Source: Anaeroplasmataceae bacterium
Lineage (GTDB): Bacteria; Bacillota_I; Bacilli_A; Acholeplasmatales; Anaeroplasmataceae
Assembly: GCA_029067355.1 (NCBI GenBank)
Contig: JAIEEQ010000052.1
Span: 1 to 32,163, forward strand
Direction of reading: 5' to 3'
DNA length: 32,163 nucleotides
Below are positions 1 through 9,015 of this stretch, piece by piece (positions within the stretch are counted from its first letter, which is position 1; every line of letters begins with the position of its first letter). The notes under the pieces were generated by a model. It saw only the letters and a list, made by a program, of their open reading frames with translations, was not told the DNA's origin and ran no database searches. A program made the translations under genes and the position numbers.

Positions 1-3000
1 GCTACACCCCTAGCTACACCTCCAGCAACACCAACAGTCAAATGGATAGGAACTGGGGAGTATCAAGCCATTGCTAAATCTGATTTTGTCTATTCTATTG
101 GAAATGGATTGTCTACTTCAGTAGATACTTCCTATGGCGTCGCTAGATTTGATTCCAGCTCAGCCACTGCATATGGAAGTAAAATTAAAAAGCAGATAGG
201 TCTTTATGTAGGAGAATATGTGACCTATAAGTCAGAAATTATTCTGCCTGCCAAAACAAAGTATGAAGTAACATATGAGGCGTTTATGCATCTAGGGCTA
301 GTTTGTTCTTCCTCTAGTGGTTCAGGAGCTGGAACTCTTGACTTCTATCATATGGGGGATACTGATCATTCAGCAGAAATTCAGATGTCAAATGCACAAA
401 ACACACCCACAGTAAATGGTGTATCTCAGTGGAGACTAAGATTAAGCCCTAGAGGAAACAAAAATCAAACTCAAACCATAACAAAAACGTATGAAAATGA
501 TACAACTGCTGATAAAAAATTTACAGAATATTTTGCTATGCACAGTGGTAGCTCAGTGGGGTCCTCATACACTTATACGTATGATGATTATATAGCAATG
601 TCAAGTACAGTAACATTTTCTGATTATATAGGACCTGATAAACCAACAGTACCTGTTCAATCAAGGGTTTTTAATGGAGAATTGCAGGATTTTGTCATCA
701 ATGATTTAAATATTGACTTTTTAAAAGAAGTCGAATTTAGTGCTGGAGGAAAAAAGGAAATATTATATCAGGCAGATCCAGCAAATCCAGCTACGCCGAT
801 TGTTGGAAATAGTCATATTGCAAATGGAGCATTGCGAGTAAAAGATGCAGGAATCTATAAATTAACCTTTTCACTTACGAGCGATGAAGAGTGGTGGTAT
901 GACGGAAGTACATCAGAAGTGTCGTTATCCGTAGAGATTACTCCTAAGCCTATACAAATGAATTGGTCTAGTCAGGAATATAACCAAGGTGCAGGAAATG
1001 AAGATAATTTCTTTTTTATGCTACCAACACCAGATGTAACCTTAGGGGTAAAAGATCTTTTAGATGAAGTAAAATATTATCTAGCCAGTGATTTTGATGC
1101 AGGAACGGGAAACATAGTAGCAGGAGCTACTGCGGTTAAGCTAGCAGATATAGAAGAAGGAAAAAACTATTATGCAGTTGTAGAGCTTAATCCTGAAAAA
1201 GCAGGATATAACTATGTCTTATCTGGAAATACATTTTGTGCCTTTTCTACGAAAGACAATAGAGAAATTATAATCATCAGCATCAAAAACTCTGGAGAAG
1301 TATATGATGGTAATTCGCATAATGCTGAATTAAATGTTGAAACCTCAAAAGGGCAAACGCTTGTTGTAGGAAAGGATATTGACTTCAAATATACCTATTA
1401 TCTAGCAGGAGATTCTCAATATGACGCTGGGTCAGCAGTCCCTCCAATCAATGCAGGAACCTATAAGCTAATCGTTTCTATAAAGCCAACATATAATGAA
1501 GATTATCGTCCTGCTGATAAATGTGAATTCAGTTTTGTAATAGAACAAGCCACCCCTATTCTTAAGCCTATACTGGTAAATCCAAGTGCTAAGCTATATG
1601 CAGGAGGAGAATGTCCAGCCATAGTAGCTGATGAGGTCAATGGCGGAACAGCAGGAACCTATATGTGGGATGCTGGGCAGAAATTACGTTCAGGTATCCA
1701 AAAGTATAGCTATACATTTACCCCAAGTTCCAGTAATTATAAAAAAATGACAGGAATGATGGAATTAGCAACAGAAGATGCTAAAATGAAGGAAATTTCT
1801 GCAACCATTACTCTACCAGAGGGATTTACAATCTATGATTCTATGAATTTAGAAGATTTAAAGCAATATATTACAGTATCTGGAGTGTACAATAATGGAA
1901 ATACAGCAGACAACGTTGCGGGATATACCATAACAGGTACACTTACAGCAGGAAATAGTACTCTCACAATACATTATGGAACAGGGAGTGATGAAGTTAC
2001 TTGCAACCTAACCTTACAAGATATTGTTGCCTCAAAATTAGAAAAAATTACTGCTGATTTTTCTCAAGATGGAAATGTTTTTACCTCATCAAATCTTGAA
2101 GATTTAAAGAAATGGTTAGAAGTAAAAGGCGTATATAATGATGGTGGAAAGCATGGAGAAATTCCTGCATCATCTTACGATCTTAGTGTAGATGGAAATC
2201 AAGAAAACGCAACCTTATCTGAGGGAGTTACCACAATCAAGGTAAGCTACTGGCATGAAGGACAAGAGTACACAACAACGTTTTCTGTTAATGTGAAACC
2301 TGTTGTTTTGGAAAGTATAACTGCTCTGTTTGAGCCAGGACTTAATGAAATAAAAAGTACAACCTCTTTAAAGAAATTGAAGGATTGGCTTACCATTACA
2401 GGAACTAATAATGATGGAAGTGCATACGATACAATAATTTCCCCAGAGGATTATACCCTTTCAGGTAAGCTCATACCAGATTCAACTTCAACAATCACAG
2501 TAAGATATCAAGGAAAGACTACAACCTTTGAAGTTTACGTTGTTCCTTCAATAAATGGTGGAAATAGAATACTTTTACCTCTTCCAGAGATTGCGACTTC
2601 TTTGAAGTATATAGGAACAGAAATTGACATTTTAGCAGACTGGAAGCATAAAGATTTGGTTGAATGTGTTGGAAATCTAGGTACAATCGTGGGAAAATAT
2701 AAGCTTGTTCTAACTATAAAAGATTATGATAGCTATGAATGGGATATGCAGGGTCTTCCAGCAGTAGATGGATCTGCTCCTTTAGGAAGAGAAGCTCAAC
2801 AAATCTCTTATACCATAGATGAAGATATGCTTACTGTTGAATGGGAAATAGTACCTACTGAACTACAAGGTGTGTGGAATGATCAAGGAACACTTGATCT
2901 TATCACAGGAAGTGATTTTAAAGGAAATTTAGAAAATATAATTGAATATAAGTACTATGACACAGATGGAAATGAGGTGAATTCTCTTGTTGAAGGACAA

Positions 3001-4212
3001 ACCTATACCGTCAAAGCTGTACTTTTAGATACCAAAAATTTTGTTATGGATGAAAAAACTACAAATCTTTTAAATGAATCACATGAATTCAGTGTTCCAG
3101 AAAGAGAACCAAATAAAATAGTTGAATTTTTTAAAACAATATGGGATTATATTTTACTTTATTGGCTATGGTTTTTAATTGGACTTATTGTATTCTTATT
3201 CTTGCTTATTCTTATCATTATTTTAGTAAAACGGAAAAAGAAGAAAAAAGAACAACAGATTAATGAAGACAAGAAAGAAATTAAAGAAGAAATTCAGACT
3301 CAAGCCCATGCTATTCAGCAACCATTAGTACAGTCAATTCCAGCTGTAAATAATGAAGCAGAAATTGCAAGGATTAAAGCAGAAAAGGATGCTGAGATAG
3401 CTAAGATAAAGGCCGAGGCAGAAATTGCAAAAGCAAAAGCTGAACTATCCGCTCAAGCTCAAGCCCAGCCAGTTCAGCAACCAATAGTACCACCAATTCC
3501 AGCTGTAAACAATGAAGCAGAAATTGCAAGGATTAAAGCAGAAAAGGATGCAGAAATAGCAAAGCTTAAGGCTGAGGCAGAAATTGCCAAAGCAAAGGCA
3601 GAAATGGCCTCTCAAACTCAAGCCCAGCCAGTTCAACAATCTGTAACTCCATTATCTACAATTAATGCAGAGGCTGAGATAGCAAAAATCAAAGCTGAAA
3701 CAGAAGCTCAAATGGCTAAGATAAAGGCTGAGGCTGAAATTGCAAAAGCGAAAGCGGAACTATCTGCTCAGACCCAAGCACAAATAGTACAACAACCGAT
3801 TTATACATCAAGAATGTCAGTCCCAGTAAATCCTTTAGAGGATTCTGAATCCTACTATCGATTACGAGAATATGAAGATAGATTACGCAGTATGGAACGC
3901 GAAATGCAGGAGCAGAGAGTAGTCGCTATGGTTAAAGAAGAAAATGAGAAAACCAGGAAAAATCTTGAGGAGAAGCAAAGAATTCGCCAGTATGAAGAGG
4001 AAATGCGATATTTACAGGATTTGAAAAATTTAGAAGCTCAAAGACGACAAGAGCTTTCCAATCAGGAGCAATCAAGTCATCAAAATGTGGAAAAGCTTGA
4101 AAAAGAAAAACTAAGACTTTTACAAGAGCAGTTAAGACAAAAACAAATTGAAAATCAACTTTTACAAGAACAAATGGAAATTGTGAACAAAGAAAAAGAA
4201 GCCAAGAGGTGA
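1..4212 (+). CDS. Giant membrane-anchored surface protein with Ig-like repeats and coiled-coil cytoplasmic tail (5' end missing)
   Basis: The frame is open from the first base, so the start and any signal peptide lie outside the window; 1403 codons are visible. Numbering from the window edge, it opens with a Pro/Thr-rich linker. A beta-rich ectodomain follows, including an MBG-like module near nt 1290-1545 (YDGNSHNAELNV) and three related Ig-like repeats at about nt 1786-2015, 2030-2300 and 2308-2550, each with a conserved LEDLK..L.V.G.YN.G pattern. One strong membrane span lies at nt 3145-3231, followed by a KRKKKKK stop-transfer. The remaining 320 residues are predicted cytoplasmic coiled coil: three 52-53-residue A/E/I/K repeats, then a Glu/Gln/Arg-rich helix. 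There is no LPXTG sorting signal. Two further coiled-coil genes follow at once. A role linking the cell surface to an internal scaffold is inference; adhesion would be the conventional guess for the outside part. Confidence 0.85.
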   Translation, partial: ATPLATPPATPTVKWIGTGEYQAIAKSDFVYSIGNGLSTSVDTSYGVARFDSSSATAYGSKIKKQIGLYVGEYVTYKSEIILPAKTKYEVTYEAFMHLGLVCSSSSGSGAGTLDFYHMGDTDHSAEIQMSNAQNTPTVNGVSQWRLRLSPRGNKNQTQTITKTYENDTTADKKFTEYFAMHSGSSVGSSYTYTYDDYIAMSSTVTFSDYIGPDKPTVPVQSRVFNGELQDFVINDLNIDFLKEVEFSAGGKKEILYQADPANPATPIVGNSHIANGALRVKDAGIYKLTFSLTSDEEWWYDGSTSEVSLSVEITPKPIQMNWSSQEYNQGAGNEDNFFFMLPTPDVTLGVKDLLDEVKYYLASDFDAGTGNIVAGATAVKLADIEEGKNYYAVVELNPEKAGYNYVLSGNTFCAFSTKDNREIIIISIKNSGEVYDGNSHNAELNVETSKGQTLVVGKDIDFKYTYYLAGDSQYDAGSAVPPINAGTYKLIVSIKPTYNEDYRPADKCEFSFVIEQATPILKPILVNPSAKLYAGGECPAIVADEVNGGTAGTYMWDAGQKLRSGIQKYSYTFTPSSSNYKKMTGMMELATEDAKMKEISATITLPEGFTIYDSMNLEDLKQYITVSGVYNNGNTADNVAGYTITGTLTAGNSTLTIHYGTGSDEVTCNLTLQDIVASKLEKITADFSQDGNVFTSSNLEDLKKWLEVKGVYNDGGKHGEIPASSYDLSVDGNQENATLSEGVTTIKVSYWHEGQEYTTTFSVNVKPVVLESITALFEPGLNEIKSTTSLKKLKDWLTITGTNNDGSAYDTIISPEDYTLSGKLIPDSTSTITVRYQGKTTTFEVYVVPSINGGNRILLPLPEIATSLKYIGTEIDILADWKHKDLVECVGNLGTIVGKYKLVLTIKDYDSYEWDMQGLPAVDGSAPLGREAQQISYTIDEDMLTVEWEIVPTELQGVWNDQGTLDLITGSDFKGNLENIIEYKYYDTDGNEVNSLVEGQTYTVKAVLLDTKNFVMDEKTTNLLNESHEFSVPEREPNKIVEFFKTIWDYILLYWLWFLIGLIVFLFLLILIIILVKRKKKKKEQQINEDKKEIKEEIQTQAHAIQQPLVQSIPAVNNEAEIARIKAEKDAEIAKIKAEAEIAKAKAELSAQAQAQPVQQPIVPPIPAVNNEAEIARIKAEKDAEIAKLKAEAEIAKAKAEMASQTQAQPVQQSVTPLSTINAEAEIAKIKAETEAQMAKIKAEAEIAKAKAELSAQTQAQIVQQPIYTSRMSVPVNPLEDSESYYRLREYEDRLRSMEREMQEQRVVAMVKEENEKTRKNLEEKQRIRQYEEEMRYLQDLKNLEAQRRQELSNQEQSSHQNVEKLEKEKLRLLQEQLRQKQIENQLLQEQMEIVNKEKEAKR
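3343..3807 (+). repeat. Three tandem 53-codon repeats in the cytoplasmic tail
   Basis: Copies begin near nt 3343, 3502 and 3661. The first two are offset by exactly 159 bases (53 codons) and the third by 156 (52 codons). Each encodes an AEIARIKAE..AEIAK.KAEAEIAKAKAE helix followed by a Gln/Pro linker ending VQQ. Copies 1 and 2 share long identical nucleotide stretches (the segment around AEIARIKAEKDA), while copy 3 is more diverged. This suggests recent duplication and possible copy-number variation between strains. Confidence 0.85.
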
Positions 4213-4217
4213 TAAAG

Positions 4218-4445
4218 ATGGTTGAAAGAAAAGAAATTAAGAAAGAAATTGAAAAGATTAAAAAGGAAATTAAGATTTTAGAAGAAAAGAGATTAAGATC
4301 TCAAGGGAATTTGCTTGAGGCTTATGTTGATCAGAAACAACCTGCAAAAAGTGATATTGATTATTTTAAAACATTATCTTCTCTTATAAAATTACAACGT
4401 GAAAATTTACATTTATTAGAAGAAGAACTTGCAAAGGAAAAGTGA
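4218..4445 (+). CDS. Small coiled-coil protein of the surface-protein locus
   Basis: This encodes a 75-residue, highly charged helical protein (MVERKEIKKEIEKIKKEIKI...LLEEELAKEK). Its two heptad-rich halves flank a short AYVDQKQPAKSDIDYF turn, which suggests a helical hairpin. There is no membrane segment or signal peptide. ATG 4218 is chosen over an in-frame GTG at 4209 because the Shine-Dalgarno AGAGGTGA at 4205-4212 sits about six bases before 4218 and would include the GTG. The gene begins six bases after the stop of the giant surface protein, so the two are almost certainly cotranscribed. I recognise no family. A partner of the coiled-coil tail of its neighbour is a reasonable inference. 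Confidence 0.7.
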   Translation: MVERKEIKKEIEKIKKEIKILEEKRLRSQGNLLEAYVDQKQPAKSDIDYFKTLSSLIKLQRENLHLLEEELAKEK

Positions 4446-4495
4446 AAATCTTTTTTGAAGTTACGGCTTAAATTAGAAATAGGAGTGAAATAAAT

Positions 4496-5608
4496 ATGAC
4501 TTCTCGAGATATAATAAATGAATACGAAAGCCGTATACGGGCAATGGAAAAAGAACTAGAGGAAAAGCGTTTGAGGAATCTTTGTCGCTCAGAAAATGAA
4601 GATTTGCAAAGGAAATTAGAAGAAACAGAACGTATTAGGCGACAAGAAATGGAAGCATTACGTCTTAGAGTATTACAAGAGGAAGTTGAAAGGAAACATC
4701 AAATGATGCTAGCAGAACACCAAAGAAGTAAGGAAGTATATTATCATTCTTCTATGGAACAAGATGTTTTCCAAAGAACAGAAGATACCCTTCAGCTTAG
4801 ATACTTACAAGAACAAATTAGGCAACAGGAATTAGAAAATGAGCGATTAAAACTCCAGCTTCAAATGCCTTTTCCATCTTTGTATTCTTCTACACCAACC
4901 TTCCATCAGCCAACAGGTTATTCATCCCCAAATATTTACGTAACACAAAATTCAGGTATGCCAAATCAAGCGTCAATGCCTTTACCCCCTTTAGAGGAAG
5001 AGGTAGATTGCAAGTGTGAAGATTTGATACCAGAAGAAAAGGATTTAGCCCCAAGAACTTTTATGGAACAAATGATTCAGCATCCCTTTGAGGTAAATGA
5101 CGGATTTAAGGATATTATTAAGCCAAGGCGTCTTACCTTTGCTGAAAGCTATGAGATTCTTAATAAAACACAAAAGAAATATTGCGACAGCCTACGGGCC
5201 TATGCCATATTAAAAAGTGGAGCTAAGGAGTCTTTAGCTAAATATCATTTATCTATTGGAAGTGCTTCAAAGCATATTATCAAGTTTATGATTAAAAATG
5301 GAACGGTCATTACGCTATTCCGTTTAGAGGACGAAAGACTAAGAAGACTAAGAAAAAGTGCGAATTCTGATGGTGCAGAAATTAAAGTCAAGGAAACAGA
5401 ACTTGCGATTGTAGATGATGTTTCTTTCCAAACGGCCACAGAAATGATAGATTTACGATTGGTACAATTAGAAGAAGACAAGGAATATCAAAAAAATCGT
5501 GCCTCTAATCGCAGGAAAACCTTGAAAGCCCCTGCTTCAACACTTCAGCCTTTGGATAAGGCAAGTATGGAAAAGCAAATTGCCAAAATTGCAGCCAATT
5601 TAGCATGA
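4496..5608 (+). CDS. Coiled-coil protein, N-terminus paralogous to the tail of the upstream surface protein
   Basis: This encodes 370 residues and is probably cytoplasmic, with no signal or membrane span. Residues 1-125 are coiled coil and align almost without gaps to the end of the protein encoded at 1-4212: EYESRIRAMEKELEEKR against EYEDRLRSMEREMQEQR, and LRYLQEQIRQQELENE against LRLLQEQLRQKQIENQ. Residues 126-190 are a Pro/Ser-rich linker with a CKC pair. Residues 205-340 form a compact alpha/beta-looking domain (RRLTFAESYEILNKTQKKY, then SIGSASKHIIKFMIKNGT). From memory this resembles an uncharacterised domain common in gut Firmicutes, but I cannot confirm it. SD AGGAGTG precedes the start. 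It is the third gene of the cluster, 50 bases after the small coiled-coil gene. Function is unknown; interaction with the membrane protein tail is inferred. Confidence 0.8.
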   Translation: MTSRDIINEYESRIRAMEKELEEKRLRNLCRSENEDLQRKLEETERIRRQEMEALRLRVLQEEVERKHQMMLAEHQRSKEVYYHSSMEQDVFQRTEDTLQLRYLQEQIRQQELENERLKLQLQMPFPSLYSSTPTFHQPTGYSSPNIYVTQNSGMPNQASMPLPPLEEEVDCKCEDLIPEEKDLAPRTFMEQMIQHPFEVNDGFKDIIKPRRLTFAESYEILNKTQKKYCDSLRAYAILKSGAKESLAKYHLSIGSASKHIIKFMIKNGTVITLFRLEDERLRRLRKSANSDGAEIKVKETELAIVDDVSFQTATEMIDLRLVQLEEDKEYQKNRASNRRKTLKAPASTLQPLDKASMEKQIAKIAANLA

Positions 5609-8088: not shown

Positions 8089-9015
8089 ATGATTGTACAA
8101 GTAAAGGATTTAGAAAAAACGTATAAGAATGGACTTAAGGCTTTAAATGGTTTATCCTTAGAGGTTAGAGAAGGAGAGATTTTTGGATTGCTTGGCCCTA
8201 ATGGTAGTGGTAAGACAACAACCATCAATTGCATATTACAGCTCTTAAGCTTTGATAAGGGAGAAATTATACTTTTTGATGAGGAGATGAAGCCTAGTCG
8301 TTTAGATTTAAAGTCTAAGATTGGACTTGTTCCTCAAAATGTTGCAGTATTTAATGAGCTTACTGTATATGATAATATTGATTTCTTTTGTGGATTATAC
8401 ATCAAGGATAAGAAGCTTAGAAAGCAATATGTTGAGGAGGCAATTGAATTTGTTTCTCTAGAGGATTATAAAAAGTTTTATCCAAAAAAGCTATCTGGTG
8501 GCTTGCTAAGACGGTTAAATATTGCTTGTGGAATTGCGCATAAGCCATCCTTAATCATCTTTGATGAGCCAACGGTTGCTGTTGATCCACAAAGTAGAAA
8601 CAAAATCTTAGAGGGGATTGTAAAATTAAAGGAGGCAGGAGCTACAATCATTTATACCTCTCACTATATGGAGGAAGTTGAGCAGATTTGTTCTTATATT
8701 GTCATTATGGATAAGGGTGAAGTGATTGCTCATGGGACGAAGGAAAAATTAAAGGAATCCATCAATTTAGGCTCTAGAATTACTATTGAAACTTCTAGCG
8801 AGGCCCTCTCTTTGTTTGAGGGAAAGGAATATGTTATGGAGATATCCTACAAGGATGGAGAGCTGATTATTCAAACGATTCGAGGAGATTCTTATTTACC
8901 ACTAATATTAGAAGCCTTGCAGAGTAAAAAGTTTCCTATTGGAAGAATTTATTCAGAAGTCCCAACATTGAATGATGTTTTCTTAAAGCTGACTGGAAAG
9001 GAATTGCGTGATTAA
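8089..9015 (+). CDS. ABC transporter ATP-binding protein (ABC-2 exporter)
   Basis: This 308-residue protein has all nucleotide-binding motifs: Walker A GPNGSGKTT (36-44), the Q-loop in VPQNVAVF, signature LSGG (135-138), Walker B LIIFDEPT (Asp159/Glu160) and the H-loop in YTSHYMEE. It is slightly longer than a bare ABC domain (about 230 residues), with the C-terminal extension usual in DrrA/NatA-type drug and sodium exporters. It energises the two permeases that follow and works on the cytoplasmic face of the membrane. The start ATG has AAGGAG (8075-8080) overlapping the stop of the TetR gene. The 3' end overlaps the next gene by eight bases, which implies translational coupling. Confidence 0.93.
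   Translation: MIVQVKDLEKTYKNGLKALNGLSLEVREGEIFGLLGPNGSGKTTTINCILQLLSFDKGEIILFDEEMKPSRLDLKSKIGLVPQNVAVFNELTVYDNIDFFCGLYIKDKKLRKQYVEEAIEFVSLEDYKKFYPKKLSGGLLRRLNIACGIAHKPSLIIFDEPTVAVDPQSRNKILEGIVKLKEAGATIIYTSHYMEEVEQICSYIVIMDKGEVIAHGTKEKLKESINLGSRITIETSSEALSLFEGKEYVMEISYKDGELIIQTIRGDSYLPLILEALQSKKFPIGRIYSEVPTLNDVFLKLTGKELRD

Follow-up and report, generated by a model that had tools for sequence, protein, structure and literature searches.

RESULTS

A surface protein and its soluble neighbor share a duplicated helical module

At the left end of the window, the 32,163-nucleotide contig C48 from the genome of an Anaeroplasmataceae gut bacterium (G000; 1.79 Mb in 89 contigs), we found three consecutive genes on the (+) strand, encoding a type I surface protein (S), a small helical protein (m), and a soluble protein (K). 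Judged by their sequences, the end of the S tail and the N-terminal ~125 residues of K are true paralogues. We give a probability of about one-half, only just in favor, to the reading that K docks on the S tail via this duplicated module, by which its C-terminal domain, named SF here, would be brought under S with m assisting.

The S gene (positions 1 to 4212) was assigned from the open reading frame (ORF) list, Pfam, and its paralogues on C35 and G003:C45, the gene for the conserved, helical-hairpin-like, 75-aa m (4218 to 4445) from the ORF list and family comparison, and that for K (4496 to 5608; 370 aa without a transmembrane helix) from the ORF list and hydropathy. All three are present in the order that an earlier note on this DNA had given. 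The order is operon-like: at the loci with this cassette, S and m are 5 nt apart and m and K 50, 47, 44, and 29 nt, and an alternative GTG start of m at 4209 overlaps the S stop codon. A scan of promoters and terminators gave no more sites than shuffled sequence.

The contig start cuts off the 5′ end of S and leaves 1403 aa visible; the C35 paralogue has 1470 aa including its signal peptide, and alignment to it puts the part absent from the C48 copy at only ~35 aa (signal peptide included). Pfam matched Big_3 in two stretches of S (E = 3e-5), the best Ig-like one at aa 797 to 847 (2389 to 2541). Hydropathy placed a single transmembrane helix near aa 1046 to 1081 (3136 to 3243), and the lysine run after it (KRKKKKK) predicts, by the positive-inside rule, that the last ~320 residues are cytoplasmic. 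From the membrane to the module, S carries three E/A/K-rich helical repeats (3346 to 3786; pattern NEAEIA[KR]IKAEKDAEIAK.KAEAEIAKAKAE), which have no similarity to the K module (Smith-Waterman [SW] scores of 30 to 33); the range for these membrane-proximal repeats against K is 30 to 74. These repeats in the S tail are nearly identical to one another, the C35 copy has a gap of Ns here (L011, about 8690 to 8950), and the G003 S gene is broken within S between the ends of contigs C45 and C33; this gap and this split mean that tail lengths need to be read with care. S had been called giant, which is true in a relative sense only, as it has about 1.44 kaa compared with 4.8 to 16 kaa in neighboring systems. 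Its Big_3 Ig-like ectodomain and the Gram-positive-type cell liken S to sortase-anchored LPXTG surface proteins, but it differs from that class in having no LPXTG ahead of the transmembrane helix and an inner tail of about 320 aa.

Coiled coils look alike through composition alone, and the S tail module (3838 to 4209) was therefore scored against K alongside shuffled sequences, by SW alignment at four loci with 1000 shuffles each. In a BLASTP alignment, the C-terminal 120 residues of S matched residues 7 to 124 of K at 38% identity (E = 2e-13), and the tail encoded by 3850 to 4209 had 45/120 identical and 76/120 similar positions with K. The shared module proposed earlier was thus recovered, but it is not almost gap-free beyond its first ~50 residues, with 15 gap positions falling in mid-alignment. 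The observed tail-K scores (144 to 210 across the four loci) exceeded 1000/1000 shuffles that kept composition, mod-7 phase, or hydrophobic pattern, with z values of 7 to 15 at all four loci; when the class at each position (hydrophobic, positive, negative, or polar) was kept, z was 3.6 to 6.0 and at most 1/1000 shuffles reached the tail-K score. Searching the 1.79-Mb genome with K returned K copies and S tails only, and searching 435 ORFs of related loci with the S tail returned only S tails and K proteins, besides one stray (E = 0.026). AlphaFold2 modeled K residues 3 to 122 (4502 to 4861) as one continuous helix, with pLDDT mostly at 86 to 97 and a dip to 69 to 75 around residues 81 to 100. 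The coiled-coil character claimed for the module holds at its two ends, where S and K keep heptads and LQEQ.RQ..EN..L motifs, but not in the middle: the heptads are clear over just ~35 residues at the start and ~28 at the end and are poor between them in both proteins.

The cassette recurs as one lineage

Within 160 genomes of the order, the S-m-K cassette is confined to four loci with identical gene order and orientation, three in G000 (C48, C35, and C70) and one in its congener G003 (C33; labeled "uncultured Mollicutes bacterium"). The earlier expectation that the neighbors accompany the surface protein was borne out, m and K standing beside every copy of this type (type C) with an assembled 3′ end. 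About 300 bp separate the G003 S gene from an unrelated upstream gene, so that S-m-K looks like a self-standing unit. The C48 K is 65% identical to that of C35 and 59% to that of G003, and the C70 K is far more divergent. Among 60 relatives, the S ectodomain is found at C48, C35, and G003 only; C70 has a different one.

At C48, C35, and G003, the S tails score higher against each other (SW of 338 to 446) than against the K of their own locus (163 to 210), which places the module duplication before the duplication of the cassette. This order of similarity is also expected if the two subunits have been kept distinct. The exception is C70, whose S tail is as near to the K modules of the other loci as are those modules' own S tails. 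The four cassettes are one lineage. Taken together, the modules of S and K are paralogous, encoded near each other in operon-like order, and recurrent, in agreement with the earlier note.

The C70 copy adjoins a diversity-generating retroelement (L012, 1 to 7614), which has a reverse transcriptase (Pfam RVT_1) and a bAvd-like accessory just under the cutoff. Its template repeat (TR; 1296 to 1415) and variable repeat (VR; 2783 to 2902) are 89% identical, differing almost entirely at TR adenines. The retroelement targets a secreted protein with a terminal dockerin (Dockerin_1, E = 1e-10), encoded upstream of and adjoining the long-tailed surface protein of the S family. A cohesin in that surface protein was considered and rejected: there was no Pfam cohesin match in G000 and none by PDB search, so that any cohesin-like fold there would have to be a remote one. 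Both repeats contain an in-frame TAA stop (near 1346 in TR and near 2830 in VR), the adenines of which are open to adenine mutagenesis; the stop may be an off state, a defect, or an assembly error.

m is a separate, widely kept family

The gene between S and K had been taken for a small coiled-coil gene. It is present and its product is helical, but it lies outside the module paralogy: m does not resemble the S tail or K (SW of 38 to 60, and of 38 to 49 for K), by which we ruled out a third coiled-coil paralogue. Matches to DUF5660 were below the cutoff, and this assignment was dropped as well. The family pattern is LE.KR.RSQ..LL.A......P...DV.YF......I.LER..L..L. G000 has five m copies, of which that on C73 is solitary. 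m is also located upstream of giant surface proteins at G000:C89, G005:C9, and G006:C41, and in G438 and G206 it is flanked by a SipW-like signal peptidase on one side and a GGDEF/EAL membrane protein on the other. From its sequence and neighbors, m is best seen as an independent family, a putative helical-hairpin accessory of membrane-surface systems.

The C-terminal domain of K is a divergent SF domain

K had no Pfam or NCBIfam match, its C-terminal ~130 aa included, and in its strict form the C-terminal domain is found at the four cassette loci only among the 160 genomes. We suspected that this was a common Bacillota domain. The sequence of that domain, used as a query, was present in 26/41 relatives, and the K profile, when searched across the class, reached the same domain in the proteins L041 to L043. 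A comparison of smaller profiles (A1 to A4) was weak, but it became strong once the set was extended to 31 SF sequences plus two bridging ones: with the bridging sequences included, hhalign matched the K domain to the SF profile at 97% probability (E = 5e-11), whereas 30 column-shuffled profiles gave E values of 0.1 to 0.93 and a reversed profile 0.19. Reciprocal hmmsearch between K and SF gave E values of 1e-6 to 1e-13. By these profile comparisons, the C-terminal domain of K (residues 211 to 339; 5126 to 5512) belongs, as a divergent member, to an unnamed domain that is widespread in Bacilli (pattern LIQS..LK..YSELKN.LLSYK..K...W..E....GR..LA...IRGKTL.L.LALDP).

One of seven SF members matched Pfam YjbR (PF04237; E = 2e-4 to 7e-4) under the gathering score, but K had no such match. 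The AlphaFold2 model of the K SF domain had a pLDDT of 54, and Foldseek gave no meaningful match to a model of such low confidence. We found no K, m, or SF domain in viral contigs and no K on plasmids.

A long S tail goes with the absence of a membrane anchor from K

We surveyed the neighborhoods of 49 SF-domain genes, counting in the K copies. At 11 loci, the preceding gene encodes a protein whose C terminus consists of a transmembrane helix plus a tail of 13 to 70 residues, and the start of the SF gene lies at -23 to +17 nt relative to where that gene stops; L045 (G222:C62) is a twelfth such locus. An N-terminal transmembrane helix is part of the SF protein itself at 12/12 of these short-tail loci and at 0/4 cassette loci, where the S tail is long and helical (its full length is not measurable in the truncated G003 copy) and where K and its three homologues carry the tail-like module at the N terminus instead. 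The nearest SF outgroups, L039 and L040, also have an N-terminal transmembrane helix. The association between tail and anchor had a Fisher p of 5e-4, which is overstated since the test assumes independent loci and the cassettes are one lineage, the swap of tail and anchor being one evolutionary event. Its simplest reading suggests that tail pairing may replace the membrane anchor of the SF partner.

Many other SF genes lie away from surface proteins and encode soluble proteins, multi-transmembrane proteins, or fusions to an L15-like or EAL domain. In the products of L073:2181-3326 (-) and L031:1063-2277 (+), a membrane-anchored SF protein is joined to a domain resembling ribosomal L15/L18e/L27A (Pfam E = 7e-13 and 2e-12); this unusual fusion is kept across the genus.

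DISCUSSION

We take S to be an Ig-like surface protein that is secreted, spans the membrane, and extends a 320-aa tail into the cell; K would be its cytoplasmic partner. Duplicated once, before the cassette multiplied, the helical module would pair the K N terminus with the S tail and so keep the SF domain under S; the E/A/K-rich repeats of S would serve as a spacer from membrane to module. At related loci the SF domain is held by its own transmembrane helix, and in the cassette lineage the paired helices would take over. The small helical hairpin m would be an accessory, probably binding the bundle. The S-K complex may relay contact at the cell exterior to a response within the cell, or it may position the surface protein.

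S and K would be just as likely to share a module if each paired only with itself, S clustering by its tail and K forming its own dimers or higher oligomers, with nothing in common except ancestry and pathway. Self-association is frequent for paralogous coils, and the S tails group with S tails and the K modules with K; however, it leaves unexplained why K has lost an anchor that every other surface-protein-adjacent SF protein keeps, and we regard it as rather unlikely. The poor heptads in the middle of the module count against docking in another way, as they are more like those of charged single helices. The modules could be such single alpha-helix spacers with no specific pairing, K being a cytoplasmic protein tied to S by coexpression only, and their E/K/R/Q-rich, proline-free sequence and the single unbroken helix modeled for K fit this explanation. 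It is less probable still, since the identities between S and K are above what the class pattern predicts and heptads and motifs are kept at both ends.

That m is a true linker bridging S and K, the shared module being its docking site on both, is quite improbable. In favor of it, no other part of the cassette is kept as widely as m, which also accompanies the type-A giants described below and module-free GGDEF/EAL membrane proteins; but its occurrence without the module (it is even solitary on C73) indicates that its partner is probably something else. Docking of K on the S tail through the paired modules, which the earlier note suggested and which the comparison supports in part, is the reading we prefer.

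Two other kinds of loci in the same genus resemble the cassette in having a surface protein with a C-terminal transmembrane helix and an adjacent SF gene: type A (G006:C41, G005:C9, and G000:C89), where m is likewise upstream, and type B (G000:C4 and G003:C3). They differ from it in that the SF protein has its own transmembrane helix and the tail of the giant is short. Type B differs further in its EAL domain and its dockerin-bearing giant of 12 to 16 kaa. The EAL domain of the type-B SF partner (E = 1e-41 and 1e-53), which K does not have, hints that some SF partners signal through cyclic-di-GMP. L073:14032-17001 (-) and L074:12991-16005 (+) each encode a membrane protein with an EAL and a C-terminal SF domain, right after a surface protein and downstream of a giant dockerin gene. 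Dockerin-bearing open frames reach 16,337 (G003:C3), 16,208 (G005:C8), 16,498 (G006:C11), and 12,480 residues (G000:C4); these are surface-type proteins of extreme size in a genome of 1.8 to 2.1 Mb.

Mycoplasma terminal-organelle adhesins with their coiled-coil cytoskeletal partners, and linkers of the integrin and cadherin type, are possible analogues, in which the inner tail of a surface protein would contact a helical partner in the cytoplasm. The likeness drawn here is a functional one, and the partner domain is different from SF. A bacterial transmembrane linkage of integrin- or cadherin-like kind, in which giant surface proteins would each have a cytoplasmic SF partner held by a transmembrane helix or by duplicated coiled coils, with EAL outputs and with C70 in series with a retroelement-diversified dockerin adhesin, is a doubtful extension of the proposal.

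To our knowledge, how very large surface proteins are coupled to the bacterial interior is mostly unknown. Within the open-license papers covered, we found no description of S-K pairing, and as far as that literature shows, the cassette is a previously undescribed version of a two-gene arrangement of surface protein and cytoplasmic partner. Its natural swap of an anchor for a paired coil would offer a pair of modules that are defined, soluble, and testable. For the giant surface proteins of gut Bacilli in general, the unnamed SF domain is now a candidate partner on the cytoplasmic side.
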